IMG/VR virus record: IMGVR_UViG_3300046167_000986
Span: 1 to 36,994 of that record
Direction: 5' to 3' (one strand)
Source of the DNA: a virus
Length of the DNA: 36,994 nucleotides
The translations under genes and the position numbers were made by a program. Below the pieces are notes generated by a model that had not been told where the DNA came from, searched no databases, and saw nothing but the letters and a program-made list of their open reading frames with translations. The number at the start of each line of letters is the position of its first letter. Positions within the stretch are counted from its first letter, which is position 1. This document shows positions 4,980-20,279 of the stretch, one piece after another.

Positions 4980-5408
4980 ATGAAATACACTTCGCAAAAC
5001 GCAGACAACTTCCCACGCTTCGTCCAACCGGGCGACTACCTAGTCACGGTCATCGAGGCCTCCGAGACGTTCTCGAAGGCCGGTGACGAGATGATCAAGC
5101 TCAAGCTCGAAGTCGAGGAACACGGGGTCCATCTCTTCGACTACCTCGTCGCAACCGAATCCAGCTTCTGGAAGATCGATACCTTTCGCAAGGCCATCGG
5201 TGAATCCGTCGTCGAGGGCGAGGAAGTGGAACTGAGCGCCTCCGAAATCGAAGGCCGACAAGGCTACGCCCGACTCAAGGTCGAGGAGTATCAGGGCAAG
5301 AAAAATAACAAGGTGGAACTCTGGCTCACCGACCGTGCGCCGAAAACCACTGCCAAGAAAACCCCGCCAGCCGAGGCAGCAGAGGAGGATGACAATGAGC
5401 CATTTTAA
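4980..5408 (+). CDS. DUF669 protein, probable phage single-stranded DNA-binding protein
   Basis: The product has 142 residues. The body (1-110) matches DUF669 phage proteins: FVQPGDYLVTVIEASET, KLEVEEHGVHLFDYLV, then FRKAIGESVVEGEEV. The tail is disordered and acidic, ending DDNEPF, which closely resembles the DDDIPF tip by which bacterial SSB recruits partner enzymes. With a Sak4-like ATPase, a helicase and a primase encoded nearby, this is most likely the phage SSB. DNA binding is inferred from family and tail rather than shown. It overlaps the helicase gene by 14 bases. Confidence 0.82.
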   Translation: MKYTSQNADNFPRFVQPGDYLVTVIEASETFSKAGDEMIKLKLEVEEHGVHLFDYLVATESSFWKIDTFRKAIGESVVEGEEVELSASEIEGRQGYARLKVEEYQGKKNNKVELWLTDRAPKTTAKKTPPAEAAEEDDNEPF

Positions 5409-6903
5409 TCTGCGCCCCTATCAGACGGAGTTCCTCGATGCAGTGCGACGTGACTTCCGGGAGCATGACCATGTTCTCGGGGTTGCGGCCACCGGTGCGG
5501 GCAAGACGATCTTGGCCTCTGAACTCATGCGTGGCTGGAAAGGCAATTGCCTCTTTCTGGCCGATGCTCAAGAGCTGGTTCGCCAGAACGCCGATAAGTT
5601 CTTCCGCTACGCCGGTGAATTCGCGGGCGTCGAAATGGCTGACTCCAAGGCCTTGCTCGGTGACCGTGTGGTGATTGCCACGACACAGAGCATCAGTCGC
5701 CGACTCGATAAATGGCCGCGGGATTACTTCAGCCTGATCGTCGTTGACGAAGCTCATCGCAACACGCTCGGCGCGATGGCCGCTCAAGTGCTGCTTCATT
5801 TCGAATCGGCCAAGGTGCTTGGCGTGACCGCGACACCGTTTCGCTCCGACCGTCGTCAACTCGGCAGTTTCTACGAGAAGATTTCCGTGGAGATTGGACT
5901 GGCCCGGCTCATCAAAGAAAACTGGCTCTCGCGCATCGTGATCAAGAGCGTGCCGCTGCCCGTTGACTTATCCGCAGTTCGGACGACCGCAGGCGATTAC
6001 AACGAAGGCGATCTCGGGCATGCCATTGAGCCCCACCTACGGGAAGCTGCGAAGCTTATCGCCGAACATGCCGCTGGGCGTCGCACCGTTGCTTTTCTTC
6101 CACTCATTGCTACGAGCAAGAAGTTTGTCGAGGCGTGCAACGAGGAAGGCATCCGGGCGGTGCATGTCGATGGTAACGACCGTGAAGGCCTCCGTGCTTA
6201 CGAGCGCGGCGAGTTTCAACTCGTATCCAATGCGTCACTACTGAGCACAGGATGGGATCATCCGCAAACCGACTGCGTCTTTATCCTGCGTCCGACCAAG
6301 AGCCTGTCACTGTTCCAGCAAATGGTGGGACGCGGCACCCGCATTGCCGACGGAAAAGACAATTTGCTTCTGCTAGATCCGCTTTTCCTGACCGACGACC
6401 ATTCGCTCATCAAGCCAGCACGCCTCTTGGCGCACTCGGAAGATGAAGCCGAGGAACTGAACGAGCTACTGGAATGCGGCGGCGAAATCGACCTGCTTGA
6501 CGCCGAGGAAGAAGCACAGGAGGTGCGCCAATCTAAGCTGGAAGAAAAGCTCAAGCTGGCCGCCAAGCGCAAGGCCCGCACCATCGACGCGATTGAATTC
6601 TGTCTCAGCCTCCGTGCCGTCGAACTGGCTGATTACGAACCGGAGCTCTCATGGGAAGGCAAGCCACCCAGCGACCGTCAACTCGAAGCACTGGAAAAAG
6701 CAGGCTTTGATACCGATTGCGTCAGCTGCCGTGGGCATGCCTCCAAGATCCTCGACCTGCTCTTCACTCGTCGCGAGCACGGCCTAGCCACACCGAAACA
6801 GCTCAGCTGGCTGCGTAAGCTCCGGTATCCTAAAGCCGAACTGGCGACCTTCGAGGAAGCGCAATCCTTCCTCAATCAACAATTCAACCGAAAGGCTGGC
6901 TGA
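5395..6903 (+). CDS. Superfamily 2 DEAD/DEAH-type DNA helicase
   Basis: The start at 5395 is preferred because AGAGGAGG (5381-5388) is six bases before it, giving 502 residues. SF2 motifs are in order: Q-like LRPYQ (6-10), motif I AATGAGKT (31-38), motif II DEAH (118-121), motif III TATP (145-148) and motif VI QMVGRGTRI near 315-323. The C-terminal 110 residues add a charged coiled region and a small helical domain, as in phage RecG/UvsW-like helicases. It probably unwinds or remodels DNA at replication or recombination intermediates. It ends on the first base of the next start codon. Confidence 0.9.
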   Translation: MSHFNLRPYQTEFLDAVRRDFREHDHVLGVAATGAGKTILASELMRGWKGNCLFLADAQELVRQNADKFFRYAGEFAGVEMADSKALLGDRVVIATTQSISRRLDKWPRDYFSLIVVDEAHRNTLGAMAAQVLLHFESAKVLGVTATPFRSDRRQLGSFYEKISVEIGLARLIKENWLSRIVIKSVPLPVDLSAVRTTAGDYNEGDLGHAIEPHLREAAKLIAEHAAGRRTVAFLPLIATSKKFVEACNEEGIRAVHVDGNDREGLRAYERGEFQLVSNASLLSTGWDHPQTDCVFILRPTKSLSLFQQMVGRGTRIADGKDNLLLLDPLFLTDDHSLIKPARLLAHSEDEAEELNELLECGGEIDLLDAEEEAQEVRQSKLEEKLKLAAKRKARTIDAIEFCLSLRAVELADYEPELSWEGKPPSDRQLEALEKAGFDTDCVSCRGHASKILDLLFTRREHGLATPKQLSWLRKLRYPKAELATFEEAQSFLNQQFNRKAG

Positions 6904-8897
6904 TGCCCTTGCGCTACAAATCAAAGGGCGTTCCAGAGCTGCCATCCGATTTCCGACAGGTTGCCGAGGACTTGCTCGGCCCCGTCGACTGGCAGGACGC
7001 GCATTCGGGATTCTGCAAATGTCCTGGCGAGCACCTGCATACACGTTCGACGGGCCATCGAGATTGCAAGGTCTTCATCGATGACGGCGTGCCGACCATT
7101 CACTGCTTCCATGACAGTTGTAAGGACGAGGTGATTGCAGCCAACTTCAGGCTGCGGTCGACCATCGGCAAGATGACCTATCGCATGAACGGGCATACTG
7201 GCAACATGGAGCGGCCGAATCGTAGTGCCATCGAACAACGTCCCTTCGAAACCTTTCTCAAAGCCTGTTTCCAGCCAGACGACATTTTGTCCTTTGCGCC
7301 CGGAACGATCCTCGAAGGTGAGACCCGTGCGATTCCCGAACACAGCGGCATCAACGTCTTCACCCGCGATCAATGGCTGGAACGCGCCGACGCCAAAGGA
7401 GGTATTGGACGTCTCTTCTCGACAAGGCATGGCCTTTACCTGCGCATCAATCCGGTCACGCTCAAATCCAATGGCAGTGACAAAGATGTGGCGGCCTATC
7501 GCCATACGCTCATCGAGAGCGACAAGATTCCGAAAGAAGATCAGGAGCGAATCCTCCGCGACTCAGGATTGCCGATTGCGGCACTGATTGATTCCGGTGG
7601 CGAGAGCATCCACGCATGGGTGCGGGTCGAAGCAAAGACGAAGGAAGAGTTCCACGAAAGACGGGAGCGCCTCTGGGAATCACTCCCTGAAGGCTTCATC
7701 ATCGACGGCCAGAACAAGAACCCGTCTCGCTTCTCTCGCTGTCCGGGTGCAAGGCGTGGCAAGGCGTTCCAGAAGCTGCTCGATGTAAACCTCGGACCAA
7801 CCTCATTCGAGGAGTGGGAACAGGAAGCCGATAGCCTTGGGCTGGGCCCTCCCCTGCGCATCTCTCAACTCGGCGAATACGATACCGAGAACGACCCGAA
7901 CACGGTGCTGGGAAACCGCTGGCTCTGCCGTGGCGGTAGCCTTGTGGTGGTTGGTCAGTCAGGAATCGGCAAATCCTCGTTCTCGATGCAGCTCTCCGTC
8001 CTATGGGCGCTTGGGCAGCCAGCCTTCAACATCAAGCCAGTGCGACCGCTCAAGAGCCTGATTATTCAGGCCGAGAATGACATTGGTGATTTGGCTGAAA
8101 TGTTTCAGGGCGTGCGTGTTGGCATGGGCCTCAGCCCGGAGCACAACGCCTTGCTCGAAGAGAACCTGATTTTCTATCGCGACACCATTCACAGCGGTGC
8201 CGAGTTCGCCCGCACTGCGGAAATTCTGATCAAACGGCACCAGCCCGACCTCGTATGGGGCGACCCGCTGCTCAACTACATTGGCGACGATGCCAGCCAG
8301 CAGAAGGTCGTCAGTGAATTCTGTGGAAGGCTCCTCAATCCGATTTCGGAGCGAACTGGTATCATCTGGTGCTTCATGCACCACACCGGCAAACCCAGCC
8401 AGGACGCGAAGGCGAAGCAACACTGGACCGGCTCTGACTTTGCCTACAGTGGTCTCGGTTCATCGGCCCTTACGAACTGGGCGCGCGAAGTGGCCGTGCT
8501 CATGCGCACGAAGACGCCCGAAGGTCAGGCCCCAACTTTTCGCTTTGAACTCTGCAAACGTCGCAAGCGCGCAGGCATGACCGATACAGCGGGTAATCCT
8601 TCCGAGGCAATCTTCGTCCGACATGGCGAACGTGGCATCTGCTGGCAGCAATGTGAACAGCCGGTTGAGGCCCAAAAGGAAAAGGGCAGCCGTTATAAGG
8701 TCGGCAAACGCGACAAGCCCGGACGCCCCAAAGTGATGGATGAGGCCATCCCTGAATTCAAAGCACTCAAGCATCTGACCAAGGAAACTGCATCCGAACT
8801 TTCGGCGCAGTATGGCGTGTCCATTCGCACCATTAATCGCCGCTGGAAAGCCTACCGCGACGAACAGGAACAAGCCGCAAATTCATCTTCAAAATAG
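6903..8897 (+). CDS. Zinc finger, AEP primase-like and RepA-type AAA_25 helicase fusion
   Basis: The product has 664 residues in four parts. Residues 38-73 hold a Cys/His cluster (C38, C40, H44, H46, C55, H67, C68, H70, C73) like a zinc-binding primase segment. About 178-290 resembles archaeo-eukaryotic primases, with YRHTLIESDKIP, ALIDSGGESIHAWVRV and NPSRFSRCPGARRG. Residues 345-560 are a RecA-fold ATPase: Walker A GQSGIGKSS (351-359), Walker B LVWGDPLL near 450, and MHHTGK as sensor. The C-terminus (about 610-655) is an HTH with VSIRTINRRWKAY. It is the likely replication initiator/primase-helicase. It lies directly before a repeat cluster that could be its binding site. Confidence 0.85.
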   Translation: MPLRYKSKGVPELPSDFRQVAEDLLGPVDWQDAHSGFCKCPGEHLHTRSTGHRDCKVFIDDGVPTIHCFHDSCKDEVIAANFRLRSTIGKMTYRMNGHTGNMERPNRSAIEQRPFETFLKACFQPDDILSFAPGTILEGETRAIPEHSGINVFTRDQWLERADAKGGIGRLFSTRHGLYLRINPVTLKSNGSDKDVAAYRHTLIESDKIPKEDQERILRDSGLPIAALIDSGGESIHAWVRVEAKTKEEFHERRERLWESLPEGFIIDGQNKNPSRFSRCPGARRGKAFQKLLDVNLGPTSFEEWEQEADSLGLGPPLRISQLGEYDTENDPNTVLGNRWLCRGGSLVVVGQSGIGKSSFSMQLSVLWALGQPAFNIKPVRPLKSLIIQAENDIGDLAEMFQGVRVGMGLSPEHNALLEENLIFYRDTIHSGAEFARTAEILIKRHQPDLVWGDPLLNYIGDDASQQKVVSEFCGRLLNPISERTGIIWCFMHHTGKPSQDAKAKQHWTGSDFAYSGLGSSALTNWAREVAVLMRTKTPEGQAPTFRFELCKRRKRAGMTDTAGNPSEAIFVRHGERGICWQQCEQPVEAQKEKGSRYKVGKRDKPGRPKVMDEAIPEFKALKHLTKETASELSAQYGVSIRTINRRWKAYRDEQEQAANSSSK

Positions 8898-8901
8898 CCA
8901 A

Positions 8902-9055
8902 TGCCAAAATGACAAAACTCCTCATTGCCAAAATCTTTTTTCGACCTCAGTGCCATTGCCAAAATACCGTTTCCCCCTTAGGGGGGAAACGGGTGTTATT
9001 TTTGGCACTAGGCACACCCCATACCCCTAAACGCCGCCTGCTGACAGTTTTGGCA
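8902..9055. repeat. Cluster of five TGCCAAAA boxes (iteron-like)
   Basis: The gap between the primase-helicase gene and 9076 holds five exact copies of TGCCAAAA. Three are on the + strand (8902-8909, 8926-8933, 8957-8964) and two are inverted (9000-9007, 9048-9055). Most are preceded by AAT or ATT and the three direct copies are followed by T. Spacing is 24 and 31 bases for the direct copies and 48 for the inverted ones. Such arrays next to a replication initiator gene are typical of origins or initiator autoregulation. The binding protein is unknown; the HTH at the end of the upstream product or the downstream HTH protein are candidates. Confidence 0.6.
8967..8992 (+). other. Perfect 11-bp GC hairpin inside the repeat cluster
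   Basis: CCGTTTCCCCC (8967-8977) pairs perfectly with GGGGGAAACGG (8982-8992) across a four-base loop. It stands between the three direct and two inverted TGCCAAAA boxes. No T run follows directly, though GTGTTATTTTT begins at 8994. It could be a terminator for the replication operon or a structural part of an origin. The location between oppositely oriented boxes favours the origin idea slightly. Confidence 0.55.
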
Positions 9056-9075
9056 TTGCCGAAGGGAGGCCCGGC

Positions 9076-9639
9076 ATGAGCCAAGACAATTACGCGAATC
9101 GGCAGCGTGAGCATAATGCCGCCTACAGTCAGGCCTACGCGGATTGGGTGGCGAAGCTCAGTCCGAAGAAGCGACGCGAACTGCAGGAGCGTGGCCTACT
9201 CGAAGCACAGGTCGATGCCTTCGAGACGGGCAAGCCTATCGACGTGAGCGAACTGCCCTTTGCCGACGAAACAGCGAAGCCTGAGCCAGAGGACGAGCCG
9301 CAGCCCGAATCTGATGCCGAAGACGTATGGGCTGCACTGCGTCGACTCATCGCCGAGCTACTGGCCGACCGCGATCCCGGCCTCGCACTCGACTGCCTCG
9401 CGCTCGTGAGTGGCGTCGGCTTCATGGGCGATTCGATGACTGCCATCGCCAAACGCCACAAGGTCACACGAGCCGCCGTATCCAAAAGATGCATACACTT
9501 GACCGAACAGCTCGATCTCTTGCCGTCGCGATCCATGAAGTCGTTGACAGCGCGCACCTCATATCGAACCGCACAAACCAAGAACCATGACAATCGAGAA
9601 CGCTTTGACGATGGACGGGGCTCCCGTTCGAGTAACTGA
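9076..9639 (+). CDS. HTH protein, sigma-like DNA-binding fold
   Basis: The product has 187 residues and is preceded by a good ribosome binding site AAGGGAGG (9062-9069). The N-terminal half is charged and probably disordered, with a Pro/Glu-rich acidic linker (about 65-90). Residues 95-165 form a helical domain with a helix-turn-helix, MTAIAKRHKVTRAAVSKRC, then LTEQLDLLPSRSMKSL, as in phage proteins with sigma-70 region 4-like folds. It may bind DNA at the repeat cluster just upstream or regulate transcription. Its last 53 bases overlap the next gene in another frame, so the final residues may not be important. Confidence 0.68.
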   Translation: MSQDNYANRQREHNAAYSQAYADWVAKLSPKKRRELQERGLLEAQVDAFETGKPIDVSELPFADETAKPEPEDEPQPESDAEDVWAALRRLIAELLADRDPGLALDCLALVSGVGFMGDSMTAIAKRHKVTRAAVSKRCIHLTEQLDLLPSRSMKSLTARTSYRTAQTKNHDNRERFDDGRGSRSSN

Positions 9640-12890: not shown

Positions 12891-13525
12891 ACATGATCAA
12901 CAGCACCCACTCATCACCACTGGCATGGCGACCCTCCTGTCCCGAGGACATCGTCGGCCCAGCGAGACAGATCGCCTCGAAACTTATCCAGAAAGTAAGC
13001 AAAGCCAAGAACGACGGTCGTGGACCAATCAAGATCCTGATTTATGGACCTCCGGGCGTGGGCAAGACCACCATCGCCGAGTTGCTTGCCGCCGAGCTGA
13101 CCGCCTCCCAATGGAGCGTTGAAGACGCAAACGGCAAACTCGTCACTATCGAAACCGTGAAAAGCTGGATGCGTGAACTAGCCTTTGGGAACCTGTTCAG
13201 TGACTGGTCCGTGAAGATCGTCAATGAACTCGACCGCAGTTCGCGTGACGCCCAAGACCTGATGCTGACCTATCTCGATAAGCTGCCGCCCGGCAGAGCC
13301 TTTATCGGGACGAGCAACCTCGACTTGGGTCAGCTCACCGAAAGGTTCCAGACCCGCTTCCAAGCGATCAAACTTGAAGCCCCGGCATCCGAAGAGATCC
13401 GGGGCTTTTTGATGCAACACTGGGAGGTGCCGGAATCGGTCGCCTCGATGATCTCTGTCGGATGCGGAGGAAATGTCCGCGCCGCTCTCGCTGACCTCGA
13501 AACGCACTTCGACGCCCATGAGTGA
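12887..13525 (+). CDS. Clamp-loader-like AAA+ ATPase
   Basis: The product has 212 residues. Walker A is GPPGVGKT (54-61). The Walker B strand is VKIVNELDRSS (109-119), with Asn at 113 where clamp loaders have Asp and Glu114 retained. Sensor 1 is TSN (142-144), and QTRFQ (about 155-159) looks like the SRC/arginine finger. This resembles the RFC/DnaX/RuvB-type AAA+ group. A small lid domain with sensor 2 follows (GGNVRAALADL). It may load a clamp or remodel DNA during replication; no sliding clamp is encoded in the window, so a host clamp or another partner is implied. Confidence 0.8.
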   Translation: MNMINSTHSSPLAWRPSCPEDIVGPARQIASKLIQKVSKAKNDGRGPIKILIYGPPGVGKTTIAELLAAELTASQWSVEDANGKLVTIETVKSWMRELAFGNLFSDWSVKIVNELDRSSRDAQDLMLTYLDKLPPGRAFIGTSNLDLGQLTERFQTRFQAIKLEAPASEEIRGFLMQHWEVPESVASMISVGCGGNVRAALADLETHFDAHE

Positions 13526-14405
13526 ACGCGAGCATTTCAGGAGGATACTCCAGCAGACGATTTCAGGAGCAGTAAATTGGCCGAAGAAGGCAGACCGCAG
13601 CATCAAGGTCGATGATCCCGGACACGGCTGGCTTCTCCCGATTCTTCTGGAAGTCGAGAGCCGATGCTGGGGCCGCTGGGATCACTGGATGCGAACTGCA
13701 GAGGCAGGCAAGATTCTGGATGAGCCGATTCCACAGATACACTTCTGCGGAACCGGCAATCCACATGTGCGGCGGATGCACGAGAAGTCCTTGGATTGCA
13801 TCGCGAACTATGGCGGCTGGCAGGGTTGGGATAGCTGGAGACTCTTCGACTACTATCTGGACTGGCTGCTCTATGGATTCGGAGACCCAAGACAGCCGAA
13901 GCCACCGGACGAACCGTCGCCCGGAGCATTCAGCCGCCTCTGGCAAGTCTTCTGCCTCGAAGCGATGATCGCATGGCCAACAGACATGTTTGGCGACCTC
14001 ATGGCAGAAAACCGATACGGACGCGGTGCTGGCTTCTTCCCTACTCCTGAACCCGTGGTCGAGATGATGGTTCGCATGACGATGGGCGACGGTGACTGCC
14101 GACTCAAAACGGTGATGGATCCCTGTGTGGGCACCGGGCGCATGATTCTACATGCGAGCAACTACTCCTACCGGCTCTACGCGCAGGACATCAATCCGAC
14201 GGTGATCAAAGCCTGTCTGGTAAATGCCTACTGCTTCGCCCCCTGGCTGGTTCGTCCATTCCCATTTCTCAAAGAAATGCCCGTGGAGCAAGTGAGCCAG
14301 CCGGTAACGCCTCCAAAACCGAAGCCGATCTCAGAACCTGCACCAATCCAAATCAACGGTCATGCGCCAGCGAACGCGCAAATGCTCTTATTCGATGAGA
14401 TTTGA
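13518..14405 (+). CDS. N6-DNA-methylase-like SAM-binding protein lacking motif IV
   Basis: The start at 13518 overlaps the previous stop and gives 295 residues. About 172-240 is the SAM-binding part of a HsdM-type fold: FFPTP (173-177), motif I DPCVGTGR (201-208), and YAQDINP (221-227) as the acidic loop. The catalytic (N/D)PP(Y/F) motif expected further on is not there, and after about residue 250 the chain becomes a proline-rich tail. It therefore keeps cofactor binding but probably does not methylate adenine by the usual route. Related phage proteins with the same short form exist, so it is unlikely to be a recent truncation. It opens the methyltransferase/ParB block. Confidence 0.75.
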   Translation: MSEREHFRRILQQTISGAVNWPKKADRSIKVDDPGHGWLLPILLEVESRCWGRWDHWMRTAEAGKILDEPIPQIHFCGTGNPHVRRMHEKSLDCIANYGGWQGWDSWRLFDYYLDWLLYGFGDPRQPKPPDEPSPGAFSRLWQVFCLEAMIAWPTDMFGDLMAENRYGRGAGFFPTPEPVVEMMVRMTMGDGDCRLKTVMDPCVGTGRMILHASNYSYRLYAQDINPTVIKACLVNAYCFAPWLVRPFPFLKEMPVEQVSQPVTPPKPKPISEPAPIQINGHAPANAQMLLFDEI

Positions 14406-14424
14406 CACTTGAATCGAGAGCATG
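14402..14424 (+). promoter_or_regulatory. TTGACA-N14-ATG start element
   Basis: TTGACA (14402-14407) contains the stop codon of the previous gene and lies 14 bases before the ATG at 14422. It fills almost the whole 16-base gap. Confidence 0.4.
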
Positions 14425-15078
14425 AGTAAAGCGGCAACTCCGAAAGCAAAAGGACTGGCAGACGGGATCGAGGTATGGTGCAGCTTCGATAAGCTGGTGC
14501 CCATCGAGGAATTGAAGCCCAATCCTCGCAACCCGAATACGCACCCGGTGCGCCAGATCGAACTTCTGGCCAAGAACATTCGCTACTTTGGATGGCGCCA
14601 TCCGATTACCGTCTCGAAACGCTCCGGCTGTATCGTCGCCGGACATGGCCGACTGGCAGCCGCTCAGGAACTGGGCATTCAACTTGTGCCAGTCGACTAT
14701 CAGGACTTCGCCAGTGACAGCGATGAAATGGCTGTGCTCGTGGCAGACAACCGCCTCGCAGAGTTGGCATCCATCGACCTCAATTCCCTTGAAGGGATCA
14801 TGAACGACCTGAACGTCGAGGGCTTCGATACGCTTCTTACCGGATTCGATGAAGCCGACCTCGAAAGCCTATTGCAGGGAGAGGATGCACCAAGCGATGA
14901 AGGCGACGAAGTTGAGGACGAAGAGCTCGACAAAGGCGACGTCACTATCGCGCTTGGGCTCTACCGCTTCAAAATCAGTCAGGAAGACTATCTCAGTTGG
15001 ATCGATGGCGTGAAGCAAGACGTGGGCTTCGACAAAGATGCCGTCACCAAGGAACTCCGTAAGCGACTCGGATTATGA
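14422..15078 (+). CDS. ParB/Srx-fold N-terminal domain protein
   Basis: The product has 218 residues. Residues 23-110 form a ParB N-terminal/Srx domain: LKPNPRNPNTHP (31-42), FGWRHPITV, the nucleotide-binding motif GHGRLAAA (74-81), then ADNRLAELAS. The linker (about 145-172) is very acidic. The last 45 residues, YRFKISQEDYLSWIDGVKQ and LRKRLGL, form a small C-terminal module I have seen paired with phage ParB proteins. ParB domains bind CTP or ATP and act in DNA sliding, nuclease or kinase-type reactions. There is no ParB HTH, so a partition role is unlikely. Confidence 0.82.
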   Translation: MSKAATPKAKGLADGIEVWCSFDKLVPIEELKPNPRNPNTHPVRQIELLAKNIRYFGWRHPITVSKRSGCIVAGHGRLAAAQELGIQLVPVDYQDFASDSDEMAVLVADNRLAELASIDLNSLEGIMNDLNVEGFDTLLTGFDEADLESLLQGEDAPSDEGDEVEDEELDKGDVTIALGLYRFKISQEDYLSWIDGVKQDVGFDKDAVTKELRKRLGL

Positions 15079-16586
15079 TCCAACTCGAAGCTATCGATGG
15101 CATCCAGCCATCCACCTACAATCCGCGAAGTGCTGATCCGGAGCGGCTCGACCTGATTGAGCTATCACTGCGTAAGCTCGGTTTCCTCGCGCCCATTTTT
15201 GCCGACAGCAACGGCGAGATTCTTTCCGGCCACCAGCGACACCTCGTTGCCTCCCGTATGGGAGCAAAACAGTTGCCAGTCTTTCGGACGAAGCCAATGG
15301 ATCTCGCACAGCGCAAGGCTCTGAACATCGTCTTCAATCGCGCTACCAATGACTTTGATTGGAACAGCACACCGGAGAAAGTCACTCGCGAGCTGGCAGC
15401 TCTCGATGTGCAAAAGCTCGCTGCTGCCATCCCTAACAAAGACGTCGATTCACCGGAATTCATTCGCTGCCTGCATCCGAATCAGGTCAGCGTGAAAGAG
15501 CTATGCCGGGCGAACTCGAACCGCTGGATGCAGTATGCACGCAACCTTGCTCGCACCCTTCACCGGCACGGTATCCTGATGCCAATCGTCTGCCGAAAAG
15601 ACGGCACCGTGGTAAATGGCATTGGCCGCTTGGAGATGCTGGCCGAAAAGAAGATCGAGACAGCTCCGGTGGTCTATGTCTCCGACGAAGAGGCAAACTT
15701 CGCTCAGGCCATGATGAACCTGCTTTCGATGGATTTCGATGTGCATACGCGCTATGCCGATCTCCTCCGGCACAACTCCTTCCGCAGAGCACGTCGTGTT
15801 CGCGAAGAACTGGGCAATGGATTCATCTTCGCCGTGCATGGCTCGAAGCCCTGCCATACATTCGACATCTTTAATTCGAAGCAGAAGGCGGCATGGGTGC
15901 GCGAACACGGCACGACGATTCTCGACTTCGGTGCTGGGCACCTGACCGAGACTAAGATGCTTCGACGCGCTGGCTTCAAAGTCACGCCCTTTGAGCCTTA
16001 CCATATTTCACGTTCGGAGATCGACCGCGAGAAGAGCTTGGAACTGGTCCGTGAATTCCTTGATGCCGTTGCAAGTGGCACGGAATGGACGTCCATATTT
16101 CTGGCCAGTGTGCTCAACTCGGTGCCTTTTCAATCGGACAGAGAGCACATAGCGACTCTGCTCGCTGCACTCTGCCGTCCCGAAACAAAGGTCTACGCTT
16201 GCGCTTCGAGTATCAGCGAAACCGGCTGGCGTCAGGTCAATGGTAAGGCCTTCCTCAACAAATCAAACTCCGGTAACATCGCCTTCCGCCTCGACTACGA
16301 AAAAGGCATTCGGATTGGGGATTTTCAGGACAAGCCAAAGGTCCAGAAATACCACACGCAAAAAGAATTCCATCAGCTATGGACTCACTCATTCCGCTCC
16401 GTTAAAGTCCGGGAGTTGAGTAATAATATTACCGCAGAGTGTGCCCATGCACGCCCTGTCGATGCCGAGAGGCTCCGGGCGGCGATTGAGTTTGAGTTCA
16501 ATTTACCATATCCCGACGGCACACGCATGGGCATGGCGGAACAGGCAAAGGAAGCCTTCAGCAAACGATTGGGAATTGCATTATGA
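15075..16586 (+). CDS. Double ParB-like domain fused to a class I methyltransferase
   Basis: The product has 503 residues in three parts. Part one (1-95) is a ParB/Srx domain: YNPRSADPERLDLIELSL and GHQRHLVASRMG (52-63). Part two (about 145-230) is a second, degenerate ParB-like domain, where NGIGRLEML (181-189) replaces the GHxR motif. Part three (about 278-470) is a Rossmann methyltransferase: TILDFGAGHLTETKML (281-296), a strand ending FEPY with Glu307, then TSIFLASVLNSVPF (about 338-351). No DPPY motif is visible. Coupling of ParB-fold and SAM domains suggests a nucleic-acid-directed enzyme. It overlaps its neighbours by four bases on both sides. Confidence 0.78.
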   Translation: MIQLEAIDGIQPSTYNPRSADPERLDLIELSLRKLGFLAPIFADSNGEILSGHQRHLVASRMGAKQLPVFRTKPMDLAQRKALNIVFNRATNDFDWNSTPEKVTRELAALDVQKLAAAIPNKDVDSPEFIRCLHPNQVSVKELCRANSNRWMQYARNLARTLHRHGILMPIVCRKDGTVVNGIGRLEMLAEKKIETAPVVYVSDEEANFAQAMMNLLSMDFDVHTRYADLLRHNSFRRARRVREELGNGFIFAVHGSKPCHTFDIFNSKQKAAWVREHGTTILDFGAGHLTETKMLRRAGFKVTPFEPYHISRSEIDREKSLELVREFLDAVASGTEWTSIFLASVLNSVPFQSDREHIATLLAALCRPETKVYACASSISETGWRQVNGKAFLNKSNSGNIAFRLDYEKGIRIGDFQDKPKVQKYHTQKEFHQLWTHSFRSVKVRELSNNITAECAHARPVDAERLRAAIEFEFNLPYPDGTRMGMAEQAKEAFSKRLGIAL

Positions 16587-17005
16587 TCTACCTACTTGAC
16601 CTGAACTACACACTGGTTGCAAATTCACCAAAGCGCGGAGATTCTCCGATTCGTCCGTTCATCCGGCAAATCGAACAAGAGGAATATCGCCAGTGGCTCA
16701 TCGAACTGCTCAGGCCGCATAAAGTCATCCTTATCACGGCGAGACCGAACCGTTATCAGGACGTGACACTTGCCCGCATCAAGGATAAGTGCGGATGGGA
16801 ACCGATAGATGCCTACTTTGCTGAAATCAATTCACGTCCGCACATGATCAAAGAACATCTGCTCAAGACCCACATCTTGCCGAAATATGGCGAGGCCGGA
16901 AGCAGCTACTTCGGACTGGAGAGCAACCCTCATACCCGCGCTATGTATGGCCGCTACGGGATTAACGCTATCCGGGTAACGGATCAGGAATTGATGATGC
17001 TCTAA
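16583..17005 (+). CDS. HAD-like hydrolase with atypical nucleophile motif
   Basis: The product has 140 residues. The first strand MIYLLDLNYTLVA corresponds to HAD motif I with Asp6, but the second aspartate of DxD is Asn8. Motif II is LITARP with Thr52, the motif III lysine may be Lys90 (MIKEHLL), and YFGLESNPHT (109-118) would be motif IV with Glu113. Loss of the acid/base Asp occurs in HAD enzymes that are not simple phosphomonoesterases. It is locked into the block by an ATGA overlap with the ParB fusion gene. The substrate is unknown; action on a nucleotide or sugar intermediate of modification is a guess. Confidence 0.65.
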   Translation: MIYLLDLNYTLVANSPKRGDSPIRPFIRQIEQEEYRQWLIELLRPHKVILITARPNRYQDVTLARIKDKCGWEPIDAYFAEINSRPHMIKEHLLKTHILPKYGEAGSSYFGLESNPHTRAMYGRYGINAIRVTDQELMML

Positions 17006-17032
17006 TTGACATCGCTGCGCTCACATGAGCGC
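17006..17032 (+). promoter_or_regulatory. TTGACA-N13-ATG element with start codon in a hairpin loop
   Basis: TTGACA (17006-17011) directly follows the previous stop and lies 13 bases before the ATG at 17025. GCGCTC (17017-17022) pairs with GAGCGC (17027-17032), which places the start codon in and beside the loop. This could limit initiation. Confidence 0.4.
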
Positions 17033-17729
17033 CAATATCGAGGCCGACGACGGCATCACCACAGAAGCGAGCAACTGGGTCTTTGACGAACACGTCGCTC
17101 CACATTTCGACGAGCACGTTCGCAAGAGCGTTCCCGAGTATGACCGGGTGCAGGATTTGGCTGTTAAATTCTCGGACTGGTTTACCTATTCCGACAGCAC
17201 TGTTCTCGACTTTGGGGCGGCCACCGGTGAAACGATGCTCCGCATCCGCGAAAAGCATTCGAAGCCGTTCAACCTGATTGGCTACGACAACTCGCAGGCC
17301 ATGATTGAGCAAGCAGCCCTCAAGGGCGTTGAGGTCGCATTCAGGGACTTGGAGCGTTTTACAGATATTCCGACCTTCGCCTATGGTGTCGCGCTCTACA
17401 CCTTCCAGTTTTTGCGGCCACAGGCACGGCAGAGACTCATCTACCAAATCGCTAAAGCCATTGAGCCGGAAGGTGGTCTCTTCGTTGTCGAGAAGGTGCT
17501 TGGAACGTATCCGACTACTCAGGACATCATCCAACAGCTTTATTGGGATATGAAAATCGCCAACGGCCTGACCCCGGCACAAGTGCTCAACAAGGCCCAC
17601 GCTTTGCGAGGTTGCATGTTCCCAAAGACGATTGCGGAGAATGAGGCCGAATTCAGAGCTGCAGGATTCTCTCAAGTGGAACTGGTCTTCAAGGATCTTC
17701 AGTTCTGTGGCTGGCTCCTGATCCGTTGA
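17025..17729 (+). CDS. CmoA-like SAM-dependent enzyme
   Basis: The product has 234 residues and resembles CmoA, the carboxy-SAM synthase of tRNA wobble uridine modification, along its whole length. Shared landmarks with E. coli CmoA as I remember it are WVFDEHVAPHF (18-28), the KSVPEYD segment, motif I LDFGAATGE (61-69), GYDNSQAMIE (86-95), YTFQFLRPQARQ (125-136), VVEKV (154-158) and ANGLTPAQV (179-187). The arginine I recall in E. coli CmoA as contacting the carboxyl of carboxy-SAM would align near NKAHALRGCM (189-198) and appears replaced by Ala. It may therefore be a plain methyltransferase of this fold. It ends the block and is followed at once by hairpins. Confidence 0.78.
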   Translation: MSANIEADDGITTEASNWVFDEHVAPHFDEHVRKSVPEYDRVQDLAVKFSDWFTYSDSTVLDFGAATGETMLRIREKHSKPFNLIGYDNSQAMIEQAALKGVEVAFRDLERFTDIPTFAYGVALYTFQFLRPQARQRLIYQIAKAIEPEGGLFVVEKVLGTYPTTQDIIQQLYWDMKIANGLTPAQVLNKAHALRGCMFPKTIAENEAEFRAAGFSQVELVFKDLQFCGWLLIR

Positions 17730-17792: not shown

Positions 17793-18476
17793 ATGCGAGA
17801 TAGCGAACAACGTGAGCGTAAGGGAAGAGCGCAGCGAGGGGAAAACCCTTCAATGGGGGCAGCCTCAGGCAACTTTGACGAACAAGCGGCAAAGAAGGTT
17901 CTCGACAAGGAGTTCGAGAACCTGATCCGCAAAGTCGCGTCCGGGAAAACCCTGACGGCTGCTGAACGTGCCCGCATTGAATCTCGTGCTGCGGGAAGCC
18001 AGGACTCGACCGCTTACGCGAAGAACCTTGTTGAGCTGGCTCAGTTGCTTGGCGTCACCCGGCGCACGCTGACGACATGGCGCAAGCAGGCAGGTGCGCC
18101 GAAACCCGAAGCGAATGGACAGCACGATGTCGCAGCATGGCGAGAGTTTGTTCGTTCGCGTGGCCTCAAGGGCGGTGGCGAATCCGTCCACAATCAGGAA
18201 GCCCTGAAGGCGCGAAAGCTACTCGCTGAAATCGAAGAACGTGAGCTGCGACTGGCCATTCGCCGGGGTGACTATCTCCACAAGGAAGATGTGCGCAAAG
18301 CGGTGCTCGAAGGATTGGCACGGCTCTTTGCGATTCTCCACAAGCGACTGGAAGACGAACTGCCGCCACTGTCCTGCGGCAAGGATGCGGTCGGCATACG
18401 AGAGGACAACGCCAAGGCACTCGATGAAGCCAGGCGCGAAGCCTATGAATTCTTTCAAGGGTGGACGGCATCATGA
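17793..18476 (+). CDS. Terminase small subunit (Nu1-like)
   Basis: The longest form has 227 residues from ATG 17793. Its first 20 residues are low-complexity and come from a GAGCG-rich stretch, so ATG 17853 (207 residues, MGAASGNFDEQ) is an equal or better start; neither has an SD. About residues 75-120 are a MerR/Nu1-like HTH: LVELAQLLGVTRRTLTTW, RKQAGAPKPE, then VAAWREFVRSR. A long charged helix (about 135-175) and a C-terminal helical part follow, as in phage small terminases. It should bind the packaging site and recruit the large subunit encoded immediately downstream (ATGA overlap). Confidence 0.78.
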   Translation: MRDSEQRERKGRAQRGENPSMGAASGNFDEQAAKKVLDKEFENLIRKVASGKTLTAAERARIESRAAGSQDSTAYAKNLVELAQLLGVTRRTLTTWRKQAGAPKPEANGQHDVAAWREFVRSRGLKGGGESVHNQEALKARKLLAEIEERELRLAIRRGDYLHKEDVRKAVLEGLARLFAILHKRLEDELPPLSCGKDAVGIREDNAKALDEARREAYEFFQGWTAS

Positions 18477-19807
18477 ACGAGGATGTCGCCAGCATGTTTG
18501 CCGAGGCGGTGCGCCCACCGGACCGTCGTCCTCCTTGGCAATGGTGTGAGGATCACATCGCATCGATCCCATACTCACCGATGCCTGGCCGCTTTCGCTC
18601 GGACAACTCGCCTTGGGTCCGTGAAGTCATGGAGGCGATTGTCGATCCCCGCGTAAAGCTCGTCTCCATTCTCGCCAGTGTTCAATCCTCCAAGACGACG
18701 ATTCCGGAGCTTACACTATGCTACCTTATCAAGAATCTGCCGGGACCATGCCTATGGCTTGACCAAACGGATGAGGATGCGAAAGACCAATCCGAAAGCC
18801 GCCTTCAGAAGCTCTTCGATGAGTGCGAACCGGTGAAAGACCTCTTTCCGAAAGACCGCCACAAGAAGCGTAATCATACGATTCACTTCTCCAATGGCAT
18901 GATGCTCTGGATTCTCGGTGCGCACAACAAAACCAACCTTCAGCGTCGTTCTATCCGCTGGCTATTCGGTGATGAAACCTGGAGGTGGCCGCAGGGAAAC
19001 ATGGCCGAAGCCGAAGCTCGCGTGACGGCTTTTGGCTGGCTTGGCAAATGTGTCTTCATGAGTCAGGGTGGCGAAGAAAACGACGACACTCACCGCAAGT
19101 TTGAGACGACCGACATGCGAGAGTGGACCTTCGCCTGTCCTTCCTGTGGCAAGCGGCAACCCTTTGAATGGGAAAACGTCGAGTGGTCGAAATCCGCCCG
19201 TGATGCCGAAGGCAACTGGAACTTTACGGCAGTACAGGATTCAACCATCCTGCGCTGCTCACATTGCAACCACTACTTCCCGGATTCCGATGCAACGCGC
19301 AGGCAATTGAACGCCACTGGCAAATTTATCCGCACGAACACCAATGCCGCTCCCGAAAATGTTGGTTTCCACTGGAACGCTCTGTGTGCGATGAGCTGGG
19401 GCAAGCTCGCTGAGCTTTACTTGCGAGCCAAGGCAGCGGCCAAACAAGGCGACACGACTTTGCTCCAGCAGTTCTATCAGAAGCGCCTCGCTCTTCCGTG
19501 GCGCGAATACGTCGAAGACTACAAGATGGAGATCGCAAACTGCGGCTACCGCAAGGGCGAGAGCTGGGAAGAGGAAGGCGGAATCAATCGTTTCGGTAAA
19601 GTCGTTGCGCCTCCATTCGAGGAATCGCTCATTCCGCTTCGCATTCTGACGGTAGACTGCCAGATGGATCACCTCTTCGCGGTCGTTCGCTCGTGGAGTG
19701 CGGATGGCTCTTCGCGTTTGGTCTGGAATGAAACGCTTGCTGACTTTCGACGACATCGAAGTGCTTCAGGAGCGTTTCGAGATTCACCCGAACCTTGTCT
19801 TCCTTGA
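18473..19807 (+). CDS. Terminase large subunit, N-terminal part (GpA family, frame broken)
   Basis: From ATG 18473 the frame gives 444 residues. It has the lambda GpA layout: ATPase with Walker A-like ASVQSSKTT (68-76) and Walker B WLFGDET (Asp167, Glu168), then a zinc-binding insert with Cys222, Cys225, Cys262 and Cys265. The nuclease domain starts at ILTVDCQMDHLFAVV. After NETL (codon 19736-19738) the frame goes wrong: the last 22 residues are shadow sequence, and the true continuation is one base ahead. The joined protein would be about 601 residues, close to the family size. The DNA motor packages the genome into the prohead at the portal. Confidence 0.88.
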   Translation: MNEDVASMFAEAVRPPDRRPPWQWCEDHIASIPYSPMPGRFRSDNSPWVREVMEAIVDPRVKLVSILASVQSSKTTIPELTLCYLIKNLPGPCLWLDQTDEDAKDQSESRLQKLFDECEPVKDLFPKDRHKKRNHTIHFSNGMMLWILGAHNKTNLQRRSIRWLFGDETWRWPQGNMAEAEARVTAFGWLGKCVFMSQGGEENDDTHRKFETTDMREWTFACPSCGKRQPFEWENVEWSKSARDAEGNWNFTAVQDSTILRCSHCNHYFPDSDATRRQLNATGKFIRTNTNAAPENVGFHWNALCAMSWGKLAELYLRAKAAAKQGDTTLLQQFYQKRLALPWREYVEDYKMEIANCGYRKGESWEEEGGINRFGKVVAPPFEESLIPLRILTVDCQMDHLFAVVRSWSADGSSRLVWNETLADFRRHRSASGAFRDSPEPCLP

Positions 19808-20279
19808 TGCCGGTCACGCCACCTACGACGTTTACCGTCAGTGCTCGAAGAAAGGTTGGGTCGCACTCATTGGCGACCGGAGGCTGACCTTCCCGCACAA
19901 AACGAAGGAGAAAGGAAGTATCCAGCGGTTCTATTCGCCACGGCGAAAGGTCGTTCTGACTAACCGGCAATTCTGCTACGTCCACTACTGGTCGAACCTG
20001 AACATCAAAGACACGCTTGCTCGGCTACGTCGCAACCAAGACCCCTCACGGGGTGCGACGTGGGAAGTTCCCGACGACATCGACGAGGATTACCTGTCCC
20101 AGATGGAGAGCGAGCACCGCACCAAGGAGAAAAATACCTGGATGTGGAAACAGATCGGCAAACGGGCCAATCACTATTGGGACTGCGAGTCGATGCAGGC
20201 CGCTGCAGCCACCATGCTGAAGATCATTGGAGCCGAGAGCGTTGACATGAGCACATCCTCCGATGGCGAACGTAGTTGA
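19698..20279 (+). CDS. Terminase large subunit, C-terminal nuclease part (+1 frame)
   Basis: This frame carries the rest of the GpA nuclease domain: LTFDDIEVLQERFEIHPNLV from about 19740, then the metal-binding strand FLDAGHATYDVYRQC, and the late family signature NHYWDCESMQAAAATML. It has no start codon of its own at the right place; the residues before 19740 overlap the upstream frame and are meaningless. Removing one base near 19739 (CTT-G-CTG) joins the two halves smoothly. A sequencing indel, a real mutation or programmed +1 frameshifting would all produce this. It overlaps the connector gene by 17 bases. Confidence 0.82.
   Translation: MRMALRVWSGMKRLLTFDDIEVLQERFEIHPNLVFLDAGHATYDVYRQCSKKGWVALIGDRRLTFPHKTKEKGSIQRFYSPRRKVVLTNRQFCYVHYWSNLNIKDTLARLRRNQDPSRGATWEVPDDIDEDYLSQMESEHRTKEKNTWMWKQIGKRANHYWDCESMQAAAATMLKIIGAESVDMSTSSDGERS

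Follow-up and report, generated by a model that had tools for sequence, protein, structure and literature searches.

A ParB–transferase–CmoA gene block of a siphophage as a candidate DNA carboxymethylation system outside the CmoX family

In bacteria, CmoA and CmoB take part in the formation of cmo5U34 in tRNA. Arg199 of Escherichia coli CmoA binds the carboxylate of carboxy-S-adenosylmethionine (Cx-SAM) (PMC3663124), and K91 of CmoB selects Cx-SAM (PMC4482062). In December 2025, it was reported that phage CmoA makes Cx-SAM for the cytosine-C5 carboxymethyltransferase CmoX and that Cx-SAM is used on DNA; the production of Cx-SAM was demonstrated for the phage enzyme SpCmoA, and a preliminary search in the same work gave no CmoA-associated adenine-N6 or cytosine-N4 carboxymethyltransferase (PMC12783734). 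Here, we describe a block of five genes (g1–g5) found in a stretch of viral DNA of 36,994 nucleotides (IMG/VR record IMGVR_UViG_3300046167_000986, positions 1 to 36,994), which is referred to below as the window. The block includes a CmoA-like gene (g5) and a gene encoding a ParB–ParB–transferase fusion (g3). We propose that it is a phage carboxymethylation system, where g5 makes Cx-SAM and g3 carboxymethylates the phage DNA, and estimate the probability of this reading at about two in three. A literature search for CmoA, ParB, and phage together found PMC12783734 alone, and the g3 class is not described there.

Relatives of g3 were gathered from annotated phages, IMG/VR, and GTDB genomes, and each locus was scanned with hidden Markov models built in this work. 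Linkage was counted for 127 distinct g3 proteins whose genes are followed by over 1.2 kb of sequence, many of which belong to closely related, non-independent loci. A CmoA-like gene is located at most 4 kb from g3 in 121 of these loci, an adjacent ParB gene of the g2 type is present in 117, and a HAD gene in 113. Such a gene arrangement goes far beyond chance. Four of the six loci without CmoA represent one clade of Bacteroides phages, whose proteins are approximately 21% identical to g3; the other two lie in prophages with truncated or degraded sequence. The g3 loci span at least eight bacterial phyla, the hosts being Verrucomicrobiota, Bacillota, Vibrio/Photobacterium, Alphaproteobacteria, Chloroflexota, Desulfovibrionaceae, and one cyanobacterium; they are also found in Gordonia, Pseudomonas, and Aeromonas phages. 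The first-pass annotation of the window treated the five genes as one unit and named, as one refuting outcome, that these genes never occur together in homologous phages. The genes do co-occur; however, the conserved core consists of four of them, g2, g3, g4, and g5, and the five-gene unit was rejected, since the locus scan detected g1 only in close relatives of the window.

No CmoX was found in the g3 operons. When whole records are compared, CmoA is accompanied by a C5-methyltransferase, with no g3, in S-B43, S-CRM01, TurkishDelight, PaBG, F1, and SPbeta-like genomes, and by g3, with no C5-methyltransferase, in the window, Evaa, HJ05, PA_L9, and most contigs. Erwinia Y3 has a C5-methyltransferase domain distant from the cmoA gene and no g3, while contig G005, containing two g3 copies, is the sole one with both g3 and a C5-methyltransferase, which are at least 17 kb apart. 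In the phylogeny of CmoA, well-supported branches carry four or more switches of the partner (g3 or CmoX), and the CmoAs of TurkishDelight (CmoX) and Evaa (g3) are sisters with 100/99 support. This mutual exclusion and partner switching are most simply explained if g3 and CmoX can replace each other as enzymes that use Cx-SAM. The CmoX features themselves were not detected here: PF00145 matched nothing in the window record, and neither SPPC nor R350 is present in g3 or the open reading frames of the window. Being linked to CmoA and lacking these features, g3 is not CmoX and may work like CmoX. The C5-methyltransferases located near g3 in loci L155 and L156 were considered as hidden CmoX and rejected, as they have the ordinary GN, with Asn at the position of CmoX Arg350. 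The C5-methyltransferases of F1 and SPbeta-like genomes have Gly and not R350; therefore, the published signature does not fit every CmoA-linked C5-methyltransferase.

An Asn_synthase-type ligase of the CmoY class is encoded near g3 and CmoA in HJ05, Paracoccus MKU1, and Rhizobium plasmid p7. This would be expected if the product of g3 carries a carboxylate that can be amidated. No PF00733 (CmoY) protein was found in the window record or in its close relatives.

The g3 protein matches phrog_5475 over its full length (6e-108) and PF02195 in two stretches (30.0 bits, above the gathering score of 26.3). Its predicted model, with a predicted local distance difference test (pLDDT) score of 90.8, contains a class I SAM (S-adenosylmethionine) fold, and the first ParB domain can be superimposed on Myxococcus ParB with Z 11.6 and a root-mean-square deviation (rmsd) of 1.5 over 92 residues. 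We read g3 as acting on DNA because the ParB domains of g2 and g3 are of the kind fused to DNA methyltransferases. Motif I D284-x-G286-x-G288, E307, and N348-S349 are invariant in the alignment. A motif search revealed neither (D/N/S)PP(Y/F) nor PC(Q/N) in g3, and its sole near-invariant cysteine, C367, is located outside the C5 active-site position. Since g3 has no cysteine motif of the C5 type, C5 alkylation via a covalent Cys intermediate is unlikely, and direct N-alkylation seems to fit its sequence better.

Three basic residues of g3, K422, K425, and R356, are kept in 128–129 of the 130 g3 proteins that do not belong to the Bacteroides clade (each lysine in 128 of the 130) and are replaced in the CmoA-less Bacteroides clade, with Y and H in place of the lysines. 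In the CmoA-less relative from an E. coli phage-plasmid, inspected by eye, K425 is kept and K422 is not. Both lysines are situated between beta-5 and beta-6, in the topological region of CmoA R199. By analogy with K91 of CmoB (PMC4482062), they are candidates for the Cx-SAM-selecting residue.

The g5 protein is similar to CmoA in several searches, including TIGR00740 (E 1e-33, 115.9–117 bits), phrog_4752, and the solved CmoA structures (PDB 1im8, E 4e-23; 4gek, 2e-21). Its score is under the NCBIfam equivalog cut-off for TIGR00740 (193.3 bits), but the proven SpCmoA scores 115.6, so this cut-off excludes phage CmoA in general. The g5 protein falls into the same half of the CmoA tree as SpCmoA (95/88 support) and keeps Tyr39, motif I, and Glu164. 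Its sequence suggests a putative Cx-SAM synthase.

Several observations weigh against Cx-SAM-dependent carboxymethylation of DNA by g3. In addition to the non-independence of many loci, an amide ligase is lacking from the majority of g3 systems. CmoA is absent from the neighborhood of the g3-like genes in two distant branches, those of Bacteroides phages and E. coli phage-plasmids, which means that this fold does not by itself imply the use of Cx-SAM. The position corresponding to R199 of E. coli CmoA is occupied by Ala in g5 of the window; the CmoAs of Samunavirus and HJ05, as well as the short CmoA-like proteins of Vibrio and Desulfovibrio, have neither R199 nor R203. Finally, the modeled transferase domain of g3 resembles small-molecule and tRNA methyltransferases, which makes a non-DNA target possible.

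The CmoA-less branches of Bacteroides phages and E. coli phage-plasmids make an ancestral plain methyltransferase likely, and g3 itself might be an ordinary SAM-dependent DNA methyltransferase. The CmoA-like protein would then serve another purpose, such as draining SAM to counter SAM-dependent host defenses; SAM depletion by CmoA has been suggested (PMC12783734). This would leave without explanation the near-constant adjacency of g3 and CmoA, the repeated exchange with CmoX, and the CmoY-like ligases in three g3 genomes. It is also at odds with the retention of K422, K425, and R356 in the CmoA-linked branch and their loss in the Bacteroides branch (the E. coli branch retains K425). We consider a plain methyltransferase unlikely.

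The absence of R199 from g5, the short and low-scoring CmoA-like version in Vibrio/Desulfovibrio, and the SAM decarboxylase encoded beside the cluster in the Rhizobium relative could point to a different SAM derivative made by the CmoA-like enzyme, with g3 transferring that group. However, SpCmoA, which makes Cx-SAM, has no R199 either (PMC12783734). In our comparison, position 199 is Glu in SpCmoA, and both SpCmoA and g5 have Arg203, located one helical turn further, which may stand in for R199. As the active SpCmoA has Glu199, R199 is not defining for phage CmoA; the objection that g5 cannot be CmoA without it was rejected on these grounds. Moreover, R199 itself is kept in most g3-linked CmoAs. 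A SAM derivative other than Cx-SAM is thus very improbable.

As for the target, METTL6, glycine N-methyltransferase, and similar enzymes match the catalytic domain of g3 at tied scores (Z 13.8 for METTL6, a tRNA methyltransferase), and classic DNA methyltransferases are not among the top matches listed, though they may still be related to it. The classical role of CmoA is in tRNA cmo5U, and the Pnkp phosphatase, which g4 resembles, also occurs in RNA repair complexes. All this would suit the modification of host or phage tRNA by g3 and g5, aiding translation or evading tRNA-cutting defenses. However, the window has no tRNA genes, ParB domains of the g2/g3 type accompany DNA methyltransferases, the block adjoins the terminase genes, and g3 exchanges with CmoX, which acts on DNA (PMC12783734). 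RNA modification therefore appears quite unlikely, and DNA is the preferred target.

Sequence search revealed no solved relative of g4; only the fold search gave matches. The predicted model (pLDDT 93) is similar to the 3′-phosphatase domain of T4 Pnkp (5uj0; TM 0.73, Z 15.8, rmsd 2.5 over 125 residues), and the best non-Pnkp HAD match is clearly lower (Z 12.6). The nucleophile D6 is kept, as are T52, R54, and K90. Comparison of 34 homologues indicated D6-L-N8 instead of DxD and E113-S114-N115 as motif IV in nearly the whole family; in other words, the DxD catalytic pair and an acidic motif IV are absent across it, so a normal phosphatase cycle is doubtful. As modeled, g4 has lost the acid-base Asp but keeps the Pnkp phosphatase fold; our guess is that it is a nucleic-acid-binding accessory protein. 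The HAD gene lies upstream in Clostridia prophages and on the opposite strand in Evaa and Chloroflexi, and it is missing in Samunavirus, HJ05, Vibrio/Photobacterium, Desulfovibrionaceae, and Paracoccus.

The g2 protein matches phrog_498 (5e-42), phrog_620 (4e-38), and the ParB part of PADLOC MTase_II; its PF02195 score of 24.8 bits is slightly under the Pfam gathering score (26.3). It is a ParB of the AGHGR/ADNRLAE type, like the ParB domains fused to DNA methyltransferases. The g1 protein carries motif I (DPCVGTG); motif IV, [DNS]PP[YFW], expected of an N6-adenine DNA methyltransferase, was absent in a motif search. The match of g1 to Pfam N6_Mtase (PF02384) is limited to residues 180–251, numbered from an alternative in-frame ATG at 13473; the relative L003 supports only the length starting from 13518. 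Being restricted to close relatives and devoid of a catalytic motif IV, g1 was left out of the mechanism.

In the proposed mechanism, g5 would turn SAM into Cx-SAM using prephenate from the host. The C-terminal class I domain of g3 would accept Cx-SAM and move the carboxymethyl group onto the bases of phage DNA, whereas the two ParB domains of g3 and the separate ParB protein g2 would hold and aim the DNA target. The g4 protein would be an accessory subunit needed in most, but not all, lineages. The result would be virion DNA with carboxymethyl bases resisting host nucleases. A few distant relatives, unlike the window, encode an amide ligase that probably modifies the carboxylate further. We infer the use of Cx-SAM by g3, DNA as the target, and an alkylated atom that is more likely nitrogen than cytosine C5; nuclease protection and an accessory function of the HAD protein are suggested in the same manner. 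The enzyme that installs the modification is most likely g3 rather than g1. Most likely, g3 stands for a second branch of DNA carboxymethylation driven by CmoA, unrelated in structure to that of CmoX and targeted by ParB domains. The chances seem evenly balanced that g3 is a new class of nucleic-acid carboxymethyltransferases, unrelated to CmoX and CmoB, acting at positions other than C5 (e.g., adenine N6 or cytosine N4) in DNA, aimed by tandem ParB domains, and present in phages of at least eight phyla.

The window is a siphophage genome. The genes of Sak4, helicase, and primase are located to the left of the block, and those of terminase, portal, protease, capsid, and tail proteins to the right. 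The closest relatives outside virus collections are prophages in genomes of Puniceicoccales/Puniceicoccaceae (Verrucomicrobiota). The five consecutive genes of the types named in the first-pass annotation are all present on the plus strand with the predicted features: a SAM-binding N6-methylase-like protein without motif IV, a ParB-fold protein, a ParB–ParB–methyltransferase fusion, a HAD-like protein with DxN instead of DxD, and a CmoA-like SAM enzyme. Its remark that several starts overlap the preceding stop holds for g3 and g4 (4 nucleotides each) and for g1, which overlaps the preceding gene by 8 nucleotides; in contrast, gaps of 16 and 19 nucleotides precede g2 and g5, respectively. The block lies immediately upstream of the terminase genes, and the same placement is observed in relatives and in Gordonia phage Evaa. 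The large terminase gene of the window consists of two overlapping frames (18461–20279), whereas relatives (e.g., L015, L004, and L006) have one frame of approximately 600 amino acids; either a frameshift or an assembly error can explain this.

Table 1. Features of the gene block and the adjoining terminase genes (coordinates in the window; aa, amino acids).
Feature	Coordinates	Strand	Basis
g1: N6-methylase-like SAM-binding protein	13518..14405	+	PF02384 partial match; motif search; close relatives only
g2: ParB/Srx-fold protein, core	14422..15078	+	phrog_498, phrog_620, PADLOC MTase_II ParB part
g3: ParB–ParB–transferase, core; proposed Cx-SAM-dependent DNA carboxymethyltransferase	15075..16586	+	PF02195, phrog_5475, model, fold matches
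g3 first ParB domain (aa 1–94)	15075..15356	+	Myxococcus ParB superposition
g3 second ParB-like domain (about aa 156–214)	15540..15716	+	TIGR04285 best stretch 156–211; second PF02195 stretch
g3 class I SAM-type transferase domain (aa 229–461)	15759..16457	+	Fold matches span 229–461; invariant motif residues
g3 K422-V-Q-K425: candidate Cx-SAM carboxylate-binding lysines	16338..16349	+	Conservation pattern; inference
g4: HAD-fold protein like T4 Pnkp 3′-phosphatase domain, DxN and ESN motifs; core in most lineages	16583..17005	+	Model, fold search, 34 homologues
g5: CmoA-like putative carboxy-SAM synthase, core	17025..17729	+	TIGR00740, 1im8, A199/R203 pattern vs. SpCmoA
Terminase small and large subunit genes, directly 3′ of the block (context)	17793..20279	+	phrog_57, phrog_15

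Some related loci have peculiarities of their own. In Puniceicoccaceae prophages L012 and L013, the HAD gene occurs twice, the additional copy (8915–9334) being upstream of the ParB gene. In the close relatives L014 (1384–2039) and L015 (12018–12667), minus-strand inserts separate the HAD and CmoA genes; by eye, they resemble a PIN-domain/AbrB-like toxin–antitoxin pair. Inserts at this site were considered as extra tailoring enzymes and rejected, since those of L014 and L015 are toxin–antitoxin-like and the others are varied and non-recurring. The gut record MT835562, containing CmoA only, was not accepted as a phage, as its neighboring genes look bacterial by eye. A distant g3-like ParB–methyltransferase (22% identity) was noted in more than 50 E. 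coli plasmid records. In phage-plasmid pECO-b75 (L192), the only such plasmid inspected, a g3-like gene and ParB genes are located beside terminase (5234–9113) with no CmoA nearby; E. coli makes Cx-SAM itself.

Other observations concern CmoA and its neighbors. The C5-methyltransferases adjoining CmoA in Staphylococcus phages L033 and L042 have Gly at the position of CmoX R350; they may differ in donor recognition or may not be carboxymethyltransferases. Alcaligenes phage Afa-NA1 (L035) has a CmoA-like gene with R199 and neither a C5-methyltransferase nor g3; nearby genes annotated as DNA adenine methylases are a possible third partner type for CmoA. A short divergent CmoA-like subfamily, with E199 and with Asp replacing E164, is found in L154, L161, L175, L177, and L052, originating from Vibrio, Photobacterium, Desulfovibrionaceae, and one viral contig. 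The phage-plasmid relative Rhizobium plasmid p7 (L193) encodes an Asn_synthase protein and an S-adenosylmethionine decarboxylase (199–2111) a few kb upstream of its ParB, g3, and CmoA genes, and the system there may make use of a second unusual product of SAM.

The block is a concrete candidate for a carboxymethyltransferase system not of the C5 type, and it occurs at well over 100 loci of phages and prophages. The g3 phages in culture include Gordonia Evaa, Samunavirus, and Aeromonas HJ05; no published nucleoside analysis of any g3 phage was found in the literature. If the proposal is true, it adds a modified base or modification site and a second enzyme family for placing a carboxylate handle on DNA, and ParB domains would serve as modules with which modifying enzymes handle DNA. 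The interpretation given in the first-pass annotation holds in part; its central suggestion that a CmoA-like enzyme feeds a carboxymethyl-type modification is supported by the gene linkage, the partner exchange with CmoX, and the residue patterns. Its idea of a new system has lost part of its novelty, since CmoA-driven carboxymethylation of phage DNA was already published (PMC12783734).

Among known systems, CmoA–CmoX–CmoY of Synechococcus phage S-B43 (5cxmC/5gcxmC; PMC12783734) likewise has a CmoA-type gene beside a candidate DNA transferase, with ParB proteins common nearby; the carboxylate is amidated there, and some relatives of the g3 block have a gene for a CmoY-like ligase. Unlike CmoX, g3 is not a C5-methyltransferase, is fused to two ParB domains, and is usually accompanied by a HAD protein without a ligase. 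The bacterial CmoA/CmoB pathway shares with the block the homology of g5 to CmoA; however, no CmoB was identified, R199 is replaced, and the genes form a phage operon beside terminase in a window without tRNA genes. The phage ParB–DNA methyltransferase fusions (phrog_498, PADLOC MTase_II) contain ParB of the same type as g2 and the first domain of g3, whereas the catalytic domain of g3 is of the Methyltransf_11/23/25 kind. The g4 protein shares its fold with the 3′-phosphatase domain of T4 polynucleotide kinase/phosphatase but differs in the DxN motif, in ESN replacing the acid pair of motif IV, and in having no kinase domain. Lastly, the engineered M.MpeI N374K also carboxymethylates DNA with Cx-SAM, and there, too, the carboxylate is presumably bound by a basic residue (PMC12783734); it is an engineered C5-methyltransferase, whereas g3 would be a natural enzyme of another family.

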